From positions 1,426,001-1,490,000 of the forward strand of contig NZ_CP149817.1 in the NCBI RefSeq assembly GCF_037935975.1: 64,000 nt of DNA, in the 5' to 3' direction. A program made the position numbers and the translations under genes. The notes beneath the pieces were generated by a model that saw only the letters and a list, made by a program, of their open reading frames with translations, was not told the DNA's origin and ran no database searches. Position 1 is the first letter of the stretch; each line of letters begins with the position of its first letter. The DNA is from Teredinibacter turnerae (GTDB taxonomy: Bacteria; Pseudomonadota; Gammaproteobacteria; Pseudomonadales; Cellvibrionaceae). Of the stretch, positions 36,433 through 47,148 are shown piece by piece.

Positions 36433-36606
36433 ATGCAGGGATGCGTCGCGAACTCTATCCGAGTCTGCGAAACCTGTGAAATTTGTGGCATGTATACGGT
36501 TACAAGGTTTGGCGGGCGACCTGTTTATGATTCTTGGAATTTTATTATTTGGTCGGATGAACAGTTCACATCAACGATAAGGAGAACGTACACGAGGAAG
36601 TGGTAA
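36433..36606 (+). CDS. Possible small cysteine-motif protein
   Basis: A 57-codon frame starting at ATG with an unusually good ribosome-binding site, GGGAGG, 8 bp upstream. The product begins MQGCVANSIRVCETCEICGMY, where CETCEIC (CxxCxxC) is suggestive of metal or iron-sulfur binding, and ends with a basic RRTYTRKW tail. It precedes the ThDP enzyme gene by about 60 bp. I know no family for it. It could be a real small gene, a leader peptide, or chance. Confidence 0.35.
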   Translation: MQGCVANSIRVCETCEICGMYTVTRFGGRPVYDSWNFIIWSDEQFTSTIRRTYTRKW

Positions 36607-36666
36607 CAGCAGCCCGATGTTGAACTCACGGTTATTCCTGATTTCGTTTAAGTGGAGCTTTTTTCT

Positions 36667-38499
36667 GTGAGCACTGAGTTACCCGCAGTATCCAACACTA
36701 CAACACTTTCGTCGCCCGAATTTGAAGCGGCCGATCTCATTATTCATTATTTGGAAGCCATTGGGGTAGACCATATTTTTGGTGTGCCTGGTGGTGCAAT
36801 TGAACCAATCTACAATGCGCTTGCCAGGAGCGCCCGGCGAGGTTCTGTGGCAGCCGTAGGGGCGTGTCACGAAGCGGCGGCCGCCTACATGGCCGATGGT
36901 TATTTTCGTGAATCCGGTAAGTTGGGTGTGTGTGTGGCGACATCCGGGCCTGGTGCAACCAATCTTATTACCGGCGTTGCCTGCGCGTACGATAATAATA
37001 TCCCTATGCTGGTGATAAGCGGGCAGCCGACTATTACGTCGTTCGGAAAAGGTGCGTTGCAGGAATCATCCTGTACTGGTGTAAACGTGATGGGCATGTT
37101 TCGACATTGCACTAAATACGATTCACTGGTCTCTCATATCAATCAATTAGAAACAAAATTGGTAACGGCGATTTTGCAGGCCCTGCAGTCACCGCAAGGC
37201 CCCGTTCACCTTTCTATCCCTGTCGATATTTTGCGCGCGCCAGTCGCAAAACCCCTACGCGCTGTTCAGGTGAAAAATCAAATTGAATATCAAAACCGGA
37301 GCTTTGATGAAAGCGCCGTAGAGGCGTTGTTTGACGAGTTAATGAACGATCCGGAACCGCTGTTTTTTGTGGGGAATGGTGCGGCGGGCGCGGTAGATAA
37401 AATTATGGAACTGGTCGATATCTGTGGTGCGCGTTTTATTTCTGCACCCGATGCAAAAGGATTGGTAAATATTCGCCATGCGTCCTATCGCGGGGTATTT
37501 GGTCTCGGTGGCCACGCTAGTGCGGTACAGGCGATTCACGAGCATGCCAGCAGCATAGTCGCATTTGGTACCGGGTTTGGTGAATTTACCAGTGGAGGCT
37601 GGGACGACGCATTGCTCAGCGACCGCTTGATACACGTGGACCAGAGCACCGCAAATTTGGTGCAGTCGCCGATGGCAAAGCTTCATGTTCAAGGGCATAT
37701 TCCTACGCTGTGCCGCAAATTACTGCAAAAACTCGCGGCTGCGGGCAGGGTCGCTGATCCTAACCCGCGTTATTACGAAAAAACGAACCCGAATGTCACG
37801 GTACAGGACGCCAGTAAATATCACTCAGACGAGGTTCCGATTAAACCTCAACGTTTGATGAAATGCCTGTCTGAGAGTTTTCCTGGACACACCCGATTTG
37901 TTGCTGATGCGGGTAATAGCATGATGTGGGCACCCCATTACCTGCAACTTATTGATCCGCGTCAACGACTAAATCCCGCTGCTGCAAGCCCAGCGAATTC
38001 CGGAAACGAGAGGCGCAGAAAACAGAGTAACTGGCTGCAACTGACACTGAATTTTGCCCCCATGGGGTGGGCGATAGGTGCAGCGGTGGGAATGTCACGC
38101 GCAAACCCCAGAGCGCCGGTGGTATGTATTACCGGAGATGGTTCTTATTTAATGAGCGGGCAGGAAATCACCGTTGCAGCAAAAGAAAAATTGCCGGTCA
38201 CCTTTGTTATTCTCAATGACAGCGTCTATGGCATGGTTATGCACGGGCAGCGACTGGCGGGCGCTGAACCGATCGGATTTGAGTTGCCGACAATCGATTT
38301 CGCGAAACTTGCAGCATCGATGGGTATTCGCAGCCACGTCATCCGATGCGCGCAAGATTTCGAAAAAATCGCCGGAGGTTTCAGAGCGCTCGACCAGGGC
38401 CCGTTACTCCTGGATGTGAGGATTGATAAAGAGGAAGTCCCGCCCATGATTAATCGCTTAAAAGTGTTAGGTACCGCAAAGGAGACCACCGAAGTATGA
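36667..38499 (+). CDS. Thiamine-diphosphate enzyme, acetolactate-synthase-like
   Basis: A 611-residue ThDP enzyme with the three-domain plan of acetolactate synthase, oxalyl-CoA decarboxylase and relatives. The PYR domain has FGVPGGAIEPIYNAL and the ThDP-activating Glu in GACHEAAAAYMADGY. The PP domain has the ThDP motif ITGDGSYLMSGQEI ... ILNDSVYGMV. It carries a short insertion (about residues 435-455, NERRRKQSN). The GTG at 36667 is preferred: GGAG sits 9 bp upstream. It overlaps the next gene by 4 bp. The reaction is unknown; operon partners are two citrate-synthase-like proteins, so condensation or cleavage of 2-oxo acids is plausible. Confidence 0.88.
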   Translation: MSTELPAVSNTTTLSSPEFEAADLIIHYLEAIGVDHIFGVPGGAIEPIYNALARSARRGSVAAVGACHEAAAAYMADGYFRESGKLGVCVATSGPGATNLITGVACAYDNNIPMLVISGQPTITSFGKGALQESSCTGVNVMGMFRHCTKYDSLVSHINQLETKLVTAILQALQSPQGPVHLSIPVDILRAPVAKPLRAVQVKNQIEYQNRSFDESAVEALFDELMNDPEPLFFVGNGAAGAVDKIMELVDICGARFISAPDAKGLVNIRHASYRGVFGLGGHASAVQAIHEHASSIVAFGTGFGEFTSGGWDDALLSDRLIHVDQSTANLVQSPMAKLHVQGHIPTLCRKLLQKLAAAGRVADPNPRYYEKTNPNVTVQDASKYHSDEVPIKPQRLMKCLSESFPGHTRFVADAGNSMMWAPHYLQLIDPRQRLNPAAASPANSGNERRRKQSNWLQLTLNFAPMGWAIGAAVGMSRANPRAPVVCITGDGSYLMSGQEITVAAKEKLPVTFVILNDSVYGMVMHGQRLAGAEPIGFELPTIDFAKLAASMGIRSHVIRCAQDFEKIAGGFRALDQGPLLLDVRIDKEEVPPMINRLKVLGTAKETTEV

Positions 38500-39296
38500 G
38501 TAATTCTGCCGCGCGCGAAGTAAAGCGCAGAGACGATGTATTTGTTGAAAAAACACAGACGAAGATCTGGCTGGAAAAGCCAAGCGAAAGCAATCCCTAT
38601 ATCGCCGAGACATCCTATTGTCACGGTTATGAAATTTTCGACTTGATGAAAAACTGCAGCCTGGTAGAGGTTATTTATCTGCTGTTTAAGGGGGAGTTGC
38701 CGACAGAGGCTCAGAAAACACTGCTTGAGCAATTAATGATTGGCCTTATTAACCCGGGGCCCCGACACGCAGCAACACGGGCGGCTATGAATACGGGTGT
38801 TGGTAAAACCAATCCTGTGCACATTTTACCTATTGCAGCGATAGTGATGGGGGGCGAGCGCGATTGCGGTGGCGCCATCGAAGATACCATGCGATTTTTT
38901 CGTAAAAACTTTCGCCAGCCTGCGGAGGATGTTGCCGAGCAAATCATGGCAACTGAGAACGTGGAAGACTGGCCTGGTTTTGGTCAAATTTATGGCGGTC
39001 GTGATATTCAAACAACGCGCCTCGCAGAGACCTTGCTTGCGCTGGAGGGGGCAGGGGATATTATGCAGTGGGCGGCGAATTATGTCGTGGCGCTGGCAAA
39101 GGCCAATGCGGGATGGCTGCCCGTTGGTTTGGCCGCAGCTGTCTTTGCGGACCTCGGGTTTCACCCGAAACTTGGCGGGCCCGTGTATCAAATGATTACT
39201 GCACCGGGGTTGATCGCTCACGGATTCGAACTCTATACGAAACCGCTAACATCCATGCCTTACGTAAAAGATGAAGATTATGAAATCAAAAACTGA
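38496..39296 (+). CDS. Short citrate-synthase-like protein A
   Basis: A 266-residue protein of the citrate synthase superfamily, much shorter than citrate synthase (about 430). Small-domain signature at SYCHGYEIFDLMKN and LLFKGELPTEAQ. Comparing motifs by eye: the GPLHGGANE site reads ERDCGGAIE (His to Cys), the GFGHRVYK site reads PGFGQIYGG (His to Gln), and NVDFYSG reads NAGWLPVG (Asp to Gly). The three canonical catalytic residues are therefore missing, although GLIAHGFE keeps the family shape. It overlaps its neighbours on both sides (4 and 17 bp), implying coordinated expression. It may be a divergent lyase or a non-catalytic subunit. Confidence 0.8.
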   Translation: MSNSAAREVKRRDDVFVEKTQTKIWLEKPSESNPYIAETSYCHGYEIFDLMKNCSLVEVIYLLFKGELPTEAQKTLLEQLMIGLINPGPRHAATRAAMNTGVGKTNPVHILPIAAIVMGGERDCGGAIEDTMRFFRKNFRQPAEDVAEQIMATENVEDWPGFGQIYGGRDIQTTRLAETLLALEGAGDIMQWAANYVVALAKANAGWLPVGLAAAVFADLGFHPKLGGPVYQMITAPGLIAHGFELYTKPLTSMPYVKDEDYEIKN

Positions 39297-40107
39297 AGCT
39301 GAAATTATTGCGGAACTGGATGGCCGTCGAAATAAAATTGTTTCCCATAACGGTGGTTGGTTGCCCGGCAAAGGTGTATTTATTCATGGCCATCGCTTGC
39401 TGGAAGATCTGGTGGTGAATGAATCTTACATGCAAATTGTGGTGCTCAATGCAACGGGTAAAAAAGTGAGTACGGAGTTGGGTCAGTGGATGGAAGCTAT
39501 TTTCGGCTGCATGAGTTGGCCAGACCCGCGAATCTGGTGCAATCAAATTGGCGCACTTGCTGGTGAAACCAAAGCGTCTGTATCAGCTGCAACGGTTGCA
39601 GGCACCCTCGCCGGGGACTCGCGCGCATACGCTCAGGGCGCATTGATTAAAGGCATGGATTTTATTCGAGCCGCGATGGCAAAAGTCGAATCGGGTATGA
39701 CTCCGCAGGAGGTCACTGATACCGAGGTGAAAGCCAACCGGGGCAAGCCGAATATTATGGGGTTTGCACGGCCCTTGGCCCAGGGTGACGAACGCGTGAG
39801 CGCGCTGGAAAAACTCACAGCAAAATTAGGTTTTGCAGTGGGCCCACACCTGCAGCTCGCTTACGATATTGAGGAGGCGCTATTTGCTCGCTTCGGAGAA
39901 AGTATGAATATTGTAGGTTATATGTCGGGTTTCCTTGCTGATCATGGTTTTACGGCGGAAGAGGTATACCGGGTATATGCGGTATCGGTAATGAGCGGTG
40001 TAACCGGATGCTATGTGGAATATGCCGATCAGCCAGCAAATCAGTTTTTACCGCTGCGGTGTGACGACATTGATTACGTTGGCGTAGGTATACGCTCAGT
40101 GCGCTAG
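39280..40107 (+). CDS. Short citrate-synthase-like protein B
   Basis: A 275-residue protein, also citrate-synthase-like but distinct from protein A. Fold markers are VSAATVAGTLAGDSRAYAQGALIKG (where GPLHGG would be), IMGFARPLAQGDERV (GFGHRVYKxxDPR region), NIVGYMSGFLADHGF (NVDFYSGxLL region) and a C-terminal FLPLRCDDIDYVG like the family's RP-x-x-x-x-G-x-x-x-R-x-Y tail. The canonical His, His and Asp are not at their places. The ATG at 39280 is chosen; an ATG at 39271 is in frame. It probably pairs with protein A as a heteromer. It ends shortly before a converging chemoreceptor gene. Confidence 0.78.
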   Translation: MKSKTEAEIIAELDGRRNKIVSHNGGWLPGKGVFIHGHRLLEDLVVNESYMQIVVLNATGKKVSTELGQWMEAIFGCMSWPDPRIWCNQIGALAGETKASVSAATVAGTLAGDSRAYAQGALIKGMDFIRAAMAKVESGMTPQEVTDTEVKANRGKPNIMGFARPLAQGDERVSALEKLTAKLGFAVGPHLQLAYDIEEALFARFGESMNIVGYMSGFLADHGFTAEEVYRVYAVSVMSGVTGCYVEYADQPANQFLPLRCDDIDYVGVGIRSVR

Positions 40108-40117
40108 AAGGCCGTGT

Positions 40118-41761
40118 TCAGCGGATCGCTTTGTAGCCGATTCTAAATCCGCCCCAGTGCTTTCCATTCACATAGATAGGGGCGGAAAGATCATGAATAA
40201 CCTCGCCGGTATCGCGTTTGTAGGTTTGCAGTAGAAAAGGTTTGGTATTACTCCCGCAGCGGGCACCGGTGCGATCGTTAAATATTCGTTTGGTGCGGTT
40301 GTTAACAAGATCAGCCTCGAAATTACCTGTCAGGGGCTGTGCGTAGCGTTTGTTGTGTGTCGGGAAATAGCCATTGTTGTCCACTGCTCCGGCGAACAAT
40401 ACAAATTCCATCGCGGATAAGATAGGCTCTTGCACGGCAGGCAGTACCTTGTCTGTGAATGCATCAAAGCGGGTATTGAATTTTTTGGGGTTGGTATTTT
40501 CGATAGGTTTGTAGTCGCGATCAAACAGGTCTGACTGGGATATTTTTCCCGCGCGAACCGCCTCTTCAAACATTGCCCCAATTTTTTTCGCCGTGTCAAT
40601 GGCCGTAGTGCGTATCTGATCGTGGCGTTTTCCCAGAGTAAATTGTCCCAAGCTGCCAAGAATATCTTCTGCGAGCTCAGCGAGCTTAACGCCGTCGTCC
40701 GCTGCACGGGTGACGTTTTTCCGGGAGCTGTTAAGTTCGTGGCTAATGGAGTCGATTGCAGAAAAAACGGCGTTACTGGCATTGACCTGCTCGTGCACCG
40801 CATCAATGATGGCGGTGACCTGAGTTTTAGAGCTTTGCGCCCGCTGTGATATTTGCTGCAATGTGGTGCCAGTACTCTGTACTTTTTCAACGATGCTTGC
40901 GGTCGAGCTATTGAGCGCTGTCATTATGCCCGCCACCCGTTCTGCCTGGCCCCGGTTTTTACCTAGCATATCCTCAATTTCGCTGGTCGCTTTTGTGGTT
41001 TGATTAGCCAAACCGCGAACCTCATCGGCAACCACAGTAAAGCCGCGACCATAGTCGCCGGCGCGAGCCGCCTCAATGGCGGCGTTCAGGGCCAGGAGGT
41101 TGGTTTGCTCGGCAATATTGTTAATGACCTGGGTGATGCCCTGAATGCTTTGCGATTGTTGTTGCAGAGATACGAGTGCCTGACTGACCTCGTCCACGGT
41201 GCGGCCGATGGCGTTTATATCGCTCACCAATGCAGTTGCTGCATTCGCACCCAGGTTACTTTGTTCCCAGGTTTCGTTCGCGGCAGCACCCGCTTGTTCT
41301 GCGTTTTCTGCCACGGCTTTAACGCTGTCGGCCATTTGCCGGGCTACAGAGCTTATCTCCTCTGCGCGTTGGTATTGGGCGTCGATAGAGTTGCGCAAGG
41401 TATCAATAAAGCATGAGATATCGGCGGTGCGAACCGCTTGTCGGTCGACCTTACTGGCCAGTTCCTCAAAAATGCCTTTGCGGGAAATCTGGCACTCAAT
41501 CAGCGACTTTACCAGTTGATTGTCGGTGTGGGCGTGGGGGGCCAGTTGGCTTATCTCACTATGCGCGACTTGCTCAAGCGCAAGGTAGGTCCGCTTTATG
41601 AATGCCCGGTGAAACAGCCACAGGCCCATGGCGCCAGTGGCGAGACCGATGATTCCCGTAGCGATGGGGGTGAACTGCGAATCCGCCAGGAGCAGGATTG
41701 CAAGCACTCCAATTAGGAATATCGTTATCGAACCGGCAGAGCCGAGAATGCGGTTATTCAT
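40118..41761 (-). CDS. Methyl-accepting chemotaxis protein with C-terminal sensor domain
   Basis: A 547-residue receptor. Two closely spaced N-terminal membrane helices (about 7-28 and 32-52) leave almost no periplasmic loop. A cytoplasmic signalling domain follows with the hairpin tip [21 protein letters not shown] and [15 protein letters not shown]. The last about 160 residues, with [32 protein letters not shown] and [11 protein letters not shown], resemble a Cache/PAS-like sensor domain placed after the signalling module. The sensor is thus probably cytoplasmic. No HAMP is obvious. The gene is single and converges on the citrate-synthase-like operon. Confidence 0.9.
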
Positions 41762-45168: not shown

Positions 45169-47148
45169 CTACTGCGCGGCGTCCACACCATCATTTAACG
45201 CGTTCATTGTTTGCGTGTCGAATACCGTATTGCTATCGCGGTCGAATATGCCAGATGAGTGATTATTCAAGCCGCCGGCATCCCAGTAGAAAGGCATCAG
45301 GCCGTGTTCAATCGCCGATTGGGTAACATATCTGTGCCAGTAAGCACGAGACTGCAAGTGTAACTGCAAGTTGTCGCCAGACAATTGGTCGGTGCGTCGC
45401 ATTGCAGAATATTCGCCGAGGACTACGGGAATCCCGTTATCCACGAACTGACTTTGCATCATCGCAAACAGTTCATCGACAAACGACTCTTCGCCCCAGG
45501 TTGGGTTGTGCGCTGTGTCGGTCGCTGAATGATTGCCTGACCCCCAGTAAAAGAACTGATTGCCCCAACCCGCATCTTCACCCATGAGAGTGAACTGGTA
45601 GGGTGTATAGAAATGGACTTCTGCCATAAGGCGTCCGGCAACAGTATCGGAAGGCATGCTGGACATCAGCTCGTAAGTGCGCTCGATATCGGTGTTGGGG
45701 CCTTGGATAACCAGAACACGGAAGGCGTTGCGACCACCGGTTTCACGCACGGCGTCTACGAATGTTTGGTGGTAGCTCATGAGCACCGCCATTTGTTCCG
45801 CACTGTCCACGTTGGGCTCATTCGCACTGGCGAACATCAGGCGGCCGTCAAAATCGCGCATTTCGGTGGCGATCTGCTGCCAGAAGGCGCGTTGCTTCGC
45901 ATTGTTCGCCGCCTGCATTTCTGGCGTAATGTTGTTTTCCAGCCAACCGCCGTCCCAATGGATATTGAGGACTACCGGCATGTCATTATCGATACACAGT
46001 TGCACAACGTCTTTAACGCGCGCCAGCCAGGCGTCGTCAATTTCCGCGGTGGCCTGATTTGCGTATTGATCCCAGGAGGCTGGAATGCGGATCGCGTCGA
46101 AGCCACTTTGCTTAACGAGTTCAATAAGCTGATTGTTAACCATCGGATTACCCCAGGCGGTTTCCCCGCCGATGGCTTCTAGCGTATTGCCAATATTCCA
46201 GCCCAGTGATATTCGGCTCGCCAGAGTTACGGCGTCAGCTTCCATCCCTGTCATGTCTGGAGCAATAGCGCTGGTGTTGTAGTCGGGATACAAGCCACCG
46301 GAACTGCTGGAGCTAGATGAACTCGAGCTGGACGAACTTGAGCTTGAGCTTGAACTCGAACTCGAGCTCGAGGAAGAACTTGAGCTGGAAGAACTTGACG
46401 AGGATGAACTGCTCGCACCGCTCGAGCTGGAGGAACTGCTTGAACTTGAGCTGGAGGAACTGCTCGACGTTGTACTGCCATTGCCACACTCGACACCGCC
46501 ATCGCCCCATTGTGCATTGCAGGTCTCGGCACCGATACAGCTTGCGTTATCTTCCCATCCCCATCCGCTGTCTTGATTCGCGCAAACCGCGTAGGTCGTG
46601 CCGTACCAATTACAAACGCACGCTTGCGTGCTGCCTGACGAAGAGCTTGACGAGCTCGAGCTGCTGGATGAGCTGGAACTGGATGAACTAGAGTTCGAAG
46701 AGCTACTGGAGCTTGAGGAACTTGAAGAACTGCTCGAGCTTGAAGAGCTGCTGGAGCTCGATGAAGAGCCGGTCTGGCCGTCAGCCGTGCACGCGGTGAT
46801 AGTTGCACTGGCGTCGTCACCGTTACCTTGCAGGCCAAAACTTACCGAGCCGCCTGCAGGAATCTGGCTATTCCAGCTCAAGGGCGTTGCGGTGTAGGGG
46901 TTGTTGCCGGATACCGTCGCAGACCAGCTACTGCTGACGCTGGTACCGTTATTGTGTTCCCAGCTTACCGCCCAGTTGCTTACGGTCGACGGGCTGTCGT
47001 TGGTGATCGTTATACTGGCGGTAAAACCACCGCCCCAATCGTTACTGATGTCGTAGTCACAGGTAAGTGCCAAAGCATTTTGCGCGCACAGCCAGGCTGC
47101 CACACAAGCGCCCAGGCGCAAAAGTGGGTTTCGCAGTCGAGTCAACAT
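45169..47148 (-). CDS. Secreted GH5 endoglucanase with CBM2 and CBM10
   Basis: Endo-acting β-1,4-glucanase. Order: signal peptide (1-27), CBM2 (about 28-125, CDYDISNDWGGGFTASITI), poly-serine linker, CBM10 (about 174-222, CVCNWYGTTYAVCAN ... GWGWEDNASCIG), very long poly-serine linker (about 226-284), GH5 barrel (about 290-659). Catalytic Glu residues are seen in SANEPNVDS (acid/base) and VVLGEYSAMRR (nucleophile), with NIHWDGGWLENN also typical. The domain order is like the GH45 protein, but the catalytic family is different. It could be processive or not; sequence alone does not say. Confidence 0.95.
   Translation of the reverse strand: MLTRLRNPLLRLGACVAAWLCAQNALALTCDYDISNDWGGGFTASITITNDSPSTVSNWAVSWEHNNGTSVSSSWSATVSGNNPYTATPLSWNSQIPAGGSVSFGLQGNGDDASATITACTADGQTGSSSSSSSSSSSSSSSSSSSSSSSSNSSSSSSSSSSSSSSSSSSSGSTQACVCNWYGTTYAVCANQDSGWGWEDNASCIGAETCNAQWGDGGVECGNGSTTSSSSSSSSSSSSSSSSGASSSSSSSSSSSSSSSSSSSSSSSSSSSSSSSSSSSSSSGGLYPDYNTSAIAPDMTGMEADAVTLASRISLGWNIGNTLEAIGGETAWGNPMVNNQLIELVKQSGFDAIRIPASWDQYANQATAEIDDAWLARVKDVVQLCIDNDMPVVLNIHWDGGWLENNITPEMQAANNAKQRAFWQQIATEMRDFDGRLMFASANEPNVDSAEQMAVLMSYHQTFVDAVRETGGRNAFRVLVIQGPNTDIERTYELMSSMPSDTVAGRLMAEVHFYTPYQFTLMGEDAGWGNQFFYWGSGNHSATDTAHNPTWGEESFVDELFAMMQSQFVDNGIPVVLGEYSAMRRTDQLSGDNLQLHLQSRAYWHRYVTQSAIEHGLMPFYWDAGGLNNHSSGIFDRDSNTVFDTQTMNALNDGVDAAQ

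Follow-up and report, generated by a model that had tools for sequence, protein, structure and literature searches.

A conserved gene trio of a thiamine diphosphate enzyme and two citrate-synthase-fold proteins without the canonical catalytic residues: a candidate signal-making module in Teredinibacter turnerae

A stretch of 64,000 nucleotides of the Teredinibacter turnerae genome (assembly GCF_037935975.1, contig NZ_CP149817.1, positions 1,426,001 to 1,490,000; hereafter the window) carries three adjoining genes that encode a thiamine diphosphate (ThDP) enzyme and two different proteins of the citrate synthase fold, here called A and B (Table 1). Judged by gene order and distribution, the trio is a real, conserved gene unit, and A and B have both lost the catalytic residue set of citrate synthase. 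The explanation we favour, at somewhat less than an even chance, is that the trio forms a small biosynthetic module. Its product would be imported or sensed by a neighbouring TonB-dependent receptor and reported to two-component and cyclic di-GMP (c-di-GMP) proteins, making the whole a candidate autoinducer-like system; that the product would be a signal we infer solely from gene association. An earlier sequence-only reading of the window had described three overlapping genes, and the three plus-strand open reading frames (ORFs) are indeed present, with an overlap of 4 bp between the ThDP and A genes and of 17 bp between A and B when B starts at ATG 39280. GTG 36667 is the likelier start of the ThDP gene, with a GGAG about 10 bases 5' of it.

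Relatives of the trio were collected as 41 loci from 39 genomes (numbered L and G, respectively), with two loci each in G032 and G052 and with L034 near-identical to the window; a second pass of gene calling added A in L027, L049 and L082 and the ThDP gene in L052 and L082. A lies directly 5' of B on the same strand in 40 of the 41 loci, and the contig of the remaining one stops inside B. Among 117 relatives, B was found in 28, source genome included (E ≤1e-5), and a ThDP ortholog (E ≤1e-90) in all 28 of these and in 4 of the 89 others; for L031, L032, L043 and L053 it lies outside the locus, elsewhere in the genome. The whole ThDP-A-B block is tandem-duplicated beside one receptor in L025 (L025:5256-12497). 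Strong B matches (E below 1e-70) occurred in 10 of 398 genomes of the phylum, again counting the source genome, with 15 more weak ones, and B is also present in a Gallionellaceae metagenome-assembled genome and in Catenovulum agarivorans, while plasmid, phage and viral collections held no B relative. Within the genus, B is absent from three of the seven other genomes searched (G001, G004, G006), and the window B shares 54% identity with the Gallionellaceae protein and only 28% with that of same-genus G007; this patchy presence and pattern of identity fit transfer or differential loss. Several loci carry additional genes: asparagine-synthase-like, sulfotransferase-like and carbamoyltransferase genes of tailoring type lie near the trio in L027, L048 and L053, in L080 there are also genes for an acyl carrier protein and an adenylating ligase, and in L081 for an FkbH protein and a short-chain dehydrogenase/reductase (SDR). 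The earlier reading knew of no described pathway with such a trio, and none was found in the open-access literature, subscription papers being outside the scope of the search.

The ThDP protein contains all three Pfam TPP_enzyme domains (N, M and C), and an alignment of 27 sequences shows E74 to be invariant and G495-D496-G497 and N522 nearly so, which we take to be the ThDP-activating Glu and the GDG...N cofactor motif, respectively; with the domains, the catalytic Glu and the motif together it has the marks of a ThDP enzyme. Its description as acetolactate-synthase-like stands in this general sense, the protein scoring 292.3 bits against the biosynthetic acetolactate synthase model TIGR00118, below the equivalog cut-off of 538.35, and falling under the NCBIfam cut-offs of every model among the matches listed (25 of 60). 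In PHROGs it matches one family annotated without a function, and A and B have no match.

The citrate synthase features first noticed in A and B were borne out by profile comparison. In Pfam, A hits Citrate_synt (E 1.3e-9) and B has no hit at E 0.1; both match NCBIfam citryl-CoA lyase (CCL) subfamilies far under the cut-offs (best scores of 102.7 versus 212 bits for A and 57.5 versus 245 bits for B). Both profiles match the CCL structure 6hxp (E 1.2e-27 for A, 3.3e-17 for B) and recognise each other. These matches make both proteins distant members of the citrate synthase fold, with the CCL 6hxp as nearest relative. In a tree rooted on citrate synthase, A and B each form one clade (support 0.99 and 0.94, respectively); a grouping of the two as sisters apart from CCL was not supported, the smallest clade with both also containing CCL sequences.

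Citrate synthase uses a catalytic His, His and Asp (H274, H320 and D375 in the pig enzyme), and these columns were followed in an alignment of 37 A, 40 B and 5 CCL-like proteins with 6hxp and the genome's own citrate synthase, whose first His falls one column off, so that both columns were counted. The A family has a first-site His in 6 of 37 sequences (absent from 31), no His at the second-site column (7/37 with one within 3 columns) and no Asp within 3 columns of the third site (0/37). The B family has none of the three residues at any of the sites in 40 sequences, as had been read from the single B sequence; the window B shows A119 at the first site, a gap between A166 and R167 at the second and V215 at the third. 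Neither protein therefore has the catalytic residues of citrate synthase or 2-methylcitrate synthase. For A, the sequence-only reading had given Cys, Gln and Gly at the three positions, of which the loss of the catalytic set holds: C124 and Q164 stand at the His positions in the pairwise alignment to 6hxp, the multiple alignment places R122 at the first site, a one-residue gap at the second and V210 at the third with Gly as the next residue, the Cys is not conserved, and no new triad emerges. As these positions vary among relatives, the exact replacement residues are not meaningful. Among the CCL-like controls, four of five also lack the first His and the Asp, and all five retain the second His and both Arg columns. 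Those of L089, L091, L093 and L097, in which the second His and both Arg columns are kept and the first His and Asp lost, adjoin class III CoA-transferase-like genes (with LeuC/LeuD-like genes in L093, all read by eye), and their annotation as lyases looks doubtful.

Strict conservation in the two families falls on other residues. B invariants (40/40) include R87, W89, N91, R167, P168, R175, N213, C247 and P261. With R175 and N213 B retains the DPR-motif Arg and the NVD-motif Asn, and R167, R175 and N213 lie on or adjoining active-site columns; A invariants (37/37) include E27, R90, G161 and F162. This conservation already disfavours, on sequence grounds, a reading of the trio as ordinary acetolactate and citrate metabolism with two mis-annotated or decaying CCL copies. 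The NCBIfam family names would agree with such a reading, but residues are strictly invariant across the 37 A and the 40 B sequences, no sign of decay was seen and a full citrate synthase is encoded elsewhere in the genome, and we consider it highly improbable.

The pair has been suggested to form a heteromer, which gains indirect support from the adjacency of A and B and from their specific co-divergence. Distances were compared over 30 loci with A, B and ThDP and over 25 loci with all four genes including the receptor, leaving aside L025 (duplicated), L026 (masked ThDP stretch) and L034 (near-identical to the window). A and B co-diverge with r 0.91, and with a partial r of 0.80 when ThDP and receptor are controlled for (25 loci), as expected of heteromer partners. 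The co-divergence of A with ThDP vanishes once B and receptor are controlled for (partial r −0.17).

Four relatives have the ThDP gene without B. Three of these genomes (G014, G039, G045) have a KASIII-like gene adjoining the ThDP gene, and they are exactly the three among the 117 relatives in which such a gene was found (E ≤1e-50). Two of 390 genomes of the order have it as well (E ≤1e-60), and ThDP adjoins it in five of five loci. The protein belongs to the KASIII group by Pfam and NCBIfam, under the FabH cut-offs, and its Cys, His and Asn motifs, presumably the KASIII motifs, are readable in three of three sequences. A profile search for B in the five genomes (one of which, G736, is 87% complete) found nothing beyond weak hits, located in frames of citrate synthase size in G039 and G620. 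The surroundings are otherwise familiar: apart from the swap, L114, L115 and L118 have the gene set of the A+B loci L044 and L046 (receptor, binding-protein-like and GGDEF-EAL genes) in a different order, the ThDP protein of L114 is 71–72% identical to those of L044 and L046, and L129, whose ThDP, KASIII, receptor, binding-protein and kinase-GGDEF genes all share a strand, resembles the A+B loci of binding-protein type. Neither the window nor the source genome has a KASIII-like gene at E ≤1e-50, so a carbazole-type partner is missing there. In carbazole biosynthesis, the ThDP enzyme CqsB3/NzsH works with the KASIII-like CqsB1/NzsJ, and CqsB1 joins the ThDP product to an acyl thioester with loss of CO2 (PMC7466098). 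Because the KASIII-like gene substitutes for A+B beside the same ThDP gene, we infer that A+B may replace the KASIII step. The proposal of new chemistry, in which the trio would couple a ThDP product with an acyl thioester, becomes likelier through the KASIII loci and the carbazole precedent, while the reaction itself is still hypothetical.

The same evidence bears on two other explanations. A and B could be pseudoenzymes that catalyse nothing themselves and, as a pair, regulate the ThDP enzyme or serve as its scaffold in the manner of acetolactate synthase small subunits, for which the loss of the catalytic set in both families and the 4-bp ThDP/A overlap in the window would speak; we regard this as very unlikely, given the strictly conserved R175, N213 and R167 of B at or beside the active-site columns, the readable motifs of the KASIII-like protein that replaces the pair, and the disappearance of A-ThDP co-divergence once B and receptor are accounted for. 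Alternatively, the cluster could serve uptake and breakdown of a scarce nutrient, the receptor importing it, A+B cleaving a CoA ester like CCL, the ThDP enzyme handling the 2-oxo acid thus released and the kinases sensing the nutrient. The closest structure to A and B is a lyase, receptor and sensors would fit nutrient sensing as well, and the CCL-like sister genes adjoin CoA-transferase-like genes, but the lyase residues are absent from all B, no A has a third-site Asp, a condensing enzyme substitutes for A+B in five loci, and the acyl carrier protein and adenylating ligase of L080 and the FkbH and SDR genes of L081 point to synthesis. We hold this explanation to be quite unlikely.

The sequence-only reading took the upstream TonB receptor gene as a hint of uptake or a secreted product, and this link proved stronger than was thought, the receptor being specific to the cluster. 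Its ortholog (E ≤1e-60) occurs in 31 of the 117 relatives, including 26 of the 28 with B, and the cluster receptor of G013, 39% identical to it, scores 414 bits as a match, the next-best receptor of its own genome 72 bits. Such a receptor, whose nearest solved relatives are CirA and BtuB, could also belong to a system in which the trio makes a siderophore-like metal chelator, the receptor retrieves the metal complex and the kinases signal that metal has been taken up. Alpha-hydroxy ketones are able to bind iron, TonB/ExbD-like genes lie near the receptor in L050-L052 (by reading of the sequences), transporter-like genes lie nearby in L004, L037 and L041 (by eye), and an ABC-ATPase-like family, F6, occurs in five loci. 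We nevertheless consider a chelator unlikely: no transporter family is a constant partner, F6 with its five loci being the most widespread, the window has no Fur-box-like site at ≤3/19 or ≤2/13 mismatches, and kinase and c-di-GMP partners are, to our knowledge, atypical of siderophore loci.

Those partners also speak for the signal reading. In 33 of the 41 loci, signalling-type genes lie at most three genes away from the cluster (in L031 and L085 a binding protein only), the counts being taken from BLAST labels rather than per-gene domain searches. Examples checked with Pfam comprise PF04392 binding proteins, HAMP-HisKA-HATPase kinases, a DUF4154-kinase fusion, response-regulator (RR) proteins of RR-PAS-GGDEF-EAL architecture and a giant Ser/Thr-kinase-HATPase protein. 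Receptor, A, B, ThDP, binding protein and kinase form an array of six abutting or overlapping same-strand genes in L083, L084, L086 and L087 (kinase type checked for L083). An RR-GGDEF-EAL ortholog occurs in 18 of the 117 relatives, and B is present in 14 of these (Fisher p 1.5e-7, without correction for phylogeny). In 10 of the 14 the ortholog lies ≤1 kb from B, in one of them, G002, with an SDR gene between. The source genome has convergent DUF4154-histidine-kinase-receiver and RR-PAS-GGDEF-EAL genes at G000:C1:3585197-3589980 (L111:9198-13981), adjoining each other outside the window, 2.1 Mb from the trio, and respectively 47% and 61% identical to the cluster-flanking copies in same-genus G002. 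The same-genus genomes G004 and G006 have the sensor pair without ThDP, B or receptor orthologs and are possibly listeners without a synthase, or remnants.

Under the biosynthetic reading, the ThDP enzyme would act first and A+B second in the place of KASIII, a logic carried over from the carbazole pathway. An A-B heteromer would couple the ThDP product with an acyl-CoA or acyl-ACP while CO2 is lost, the use of an acyl thioester being suggested by the fold and the KASIII swap, in a rebuilt citrate-synthase pocket to which B would supply Arg and Asn residues. The released compound would re-enter through the TonB receptor, and its periplasmic binder would be either a PF04392-type binding protein or a YfiR-like (DUF4154) domain controlling a histidine kinase, which would set c-di-GMP through GGDEF/EAL proteins. 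In its most far-reaching form, which we judge doubtful, two citrate-synthase-fold proteins lacking His, His and Asp would together form a condensing enzyme of an undescribed class, which as a heteromer does the work of KASIII and makes a new signal family whose members return to the producing cell by a TonB receptor dedicated to them and control c-di-GMP. If true, the citrate synthase fold has given rise to a second, heteromeric route to C-C bond formation, interchangeable with a ketosynthase, and scattered Pseudomonadota own a chemical signal for which no description was found in the open-access literature. The KASIII swap offers a direct test of the role of A+B, and the linked sensors a ready read-out of the product.

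Several observations weigh against the signal-making module. Eight of the 41 loci, the window included, have no flanking signalling gene, five genomes carry the receptor without B, and G004, G006, G014 and G039 have the sensor pair and no B. Sensor type also varies by clade (DUF4154 kinase; binding protein with kinase; giant Ser/Thr-kinase type), so that the clades may not share one signal. In G028, which has the ThDP gene, neither B nor a KASIII-like gene was found, L130, one of the five KASIII loci, has of the cluster genes only ThDP (two overlapping frames) and KASIII on its 12-kb contig, with no receptor or sensor, and in the KASIII genomes no A was found by BLAST of the loci, to which that search was confined; the product there may differ from that of A+B. 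AlphaFold models of A and B, built from window, L003 and L004 sequences only, were poor (mean pLDDT 48.6 and 45.4) and too weak to bear on fold, pocket or heteromer. Product, reaction and phenotype of the trio are all hypothetical at this stage.

Table 1 Coordinates of the gene trio and adjoining genes in the window.
Feature	Position	Strand	Remarks
TonB-dependent receptor gene, 718 aa	33895..36051	+	Pfam Plug and barrel; cluster-specific
ThDP enzyme gene	36667..38499	+	acetolactate-synthase-like; alternative in-frame GTG at 36652 (ORF 36652-38499)
Protein A gene	38496..39296	+	citrate-synthase-fold protein without catalytic His-His-Asp set
Protein B gene	39271..40107	+	second citrate-synthase-fold protein; start ATG 39271 or 39280
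Methyl-accepting chemotaxis protein (MCP) gene	40118-41761	-	downstream of B

Among the other features near the trio, a 57-codon ORF between receptor and trio (36433-36606, plus strand) has a strong ribosome site and is probably no gene, because stops interrupt its counterpart in the near-identical L034. The MCP gene was rejected as a partner of the trio: it adjoins B in L034, but an SDR-like gene takes that place in L035 and L036. Rfam gave no match at the gathering threshold across 30-46 kb of the window. Further downstream, 45169-47148 (minus strand) encodes what reads by eye as a secreted protein resembling glycoside hydrolases, with long linkers of poly-serine.

The closest solved relatives of the ThDP enzyme are BbmA (8x3x) and CsmA (8x3z), for which no paper was found in the open-access literature. 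A and B share their fold, by profile and over about 270 residues, with CCL (6hxp; NCBIfam PRK06224 group) and with the corresponding ATP-citrate lyase module, and differ from these in lacking the catalytic His, His, Asp set and in being two distinct genes side by side. In LuxP-LuxQ signal sensing, a periplasmic binding protein works with a histidine kinase, and relatives of the trio likewise have binding protein and histidine kinase genes beside a synthase-like module, a likeness at the level of genes; the trio cluster differs in adding a TonB receptor, a binding protein of the PF04392 family and c-di-GMP output domains. With carbazole biosynthesis, the trio would share a ThDP enzyme paired with a condensing partner, which in five relatives is also KASIII-like; this is a likeness of gene role, and the trio differs in having a citrate-synthase-fold pair as the partner, together with a receptor and, in most relatives, sensors.

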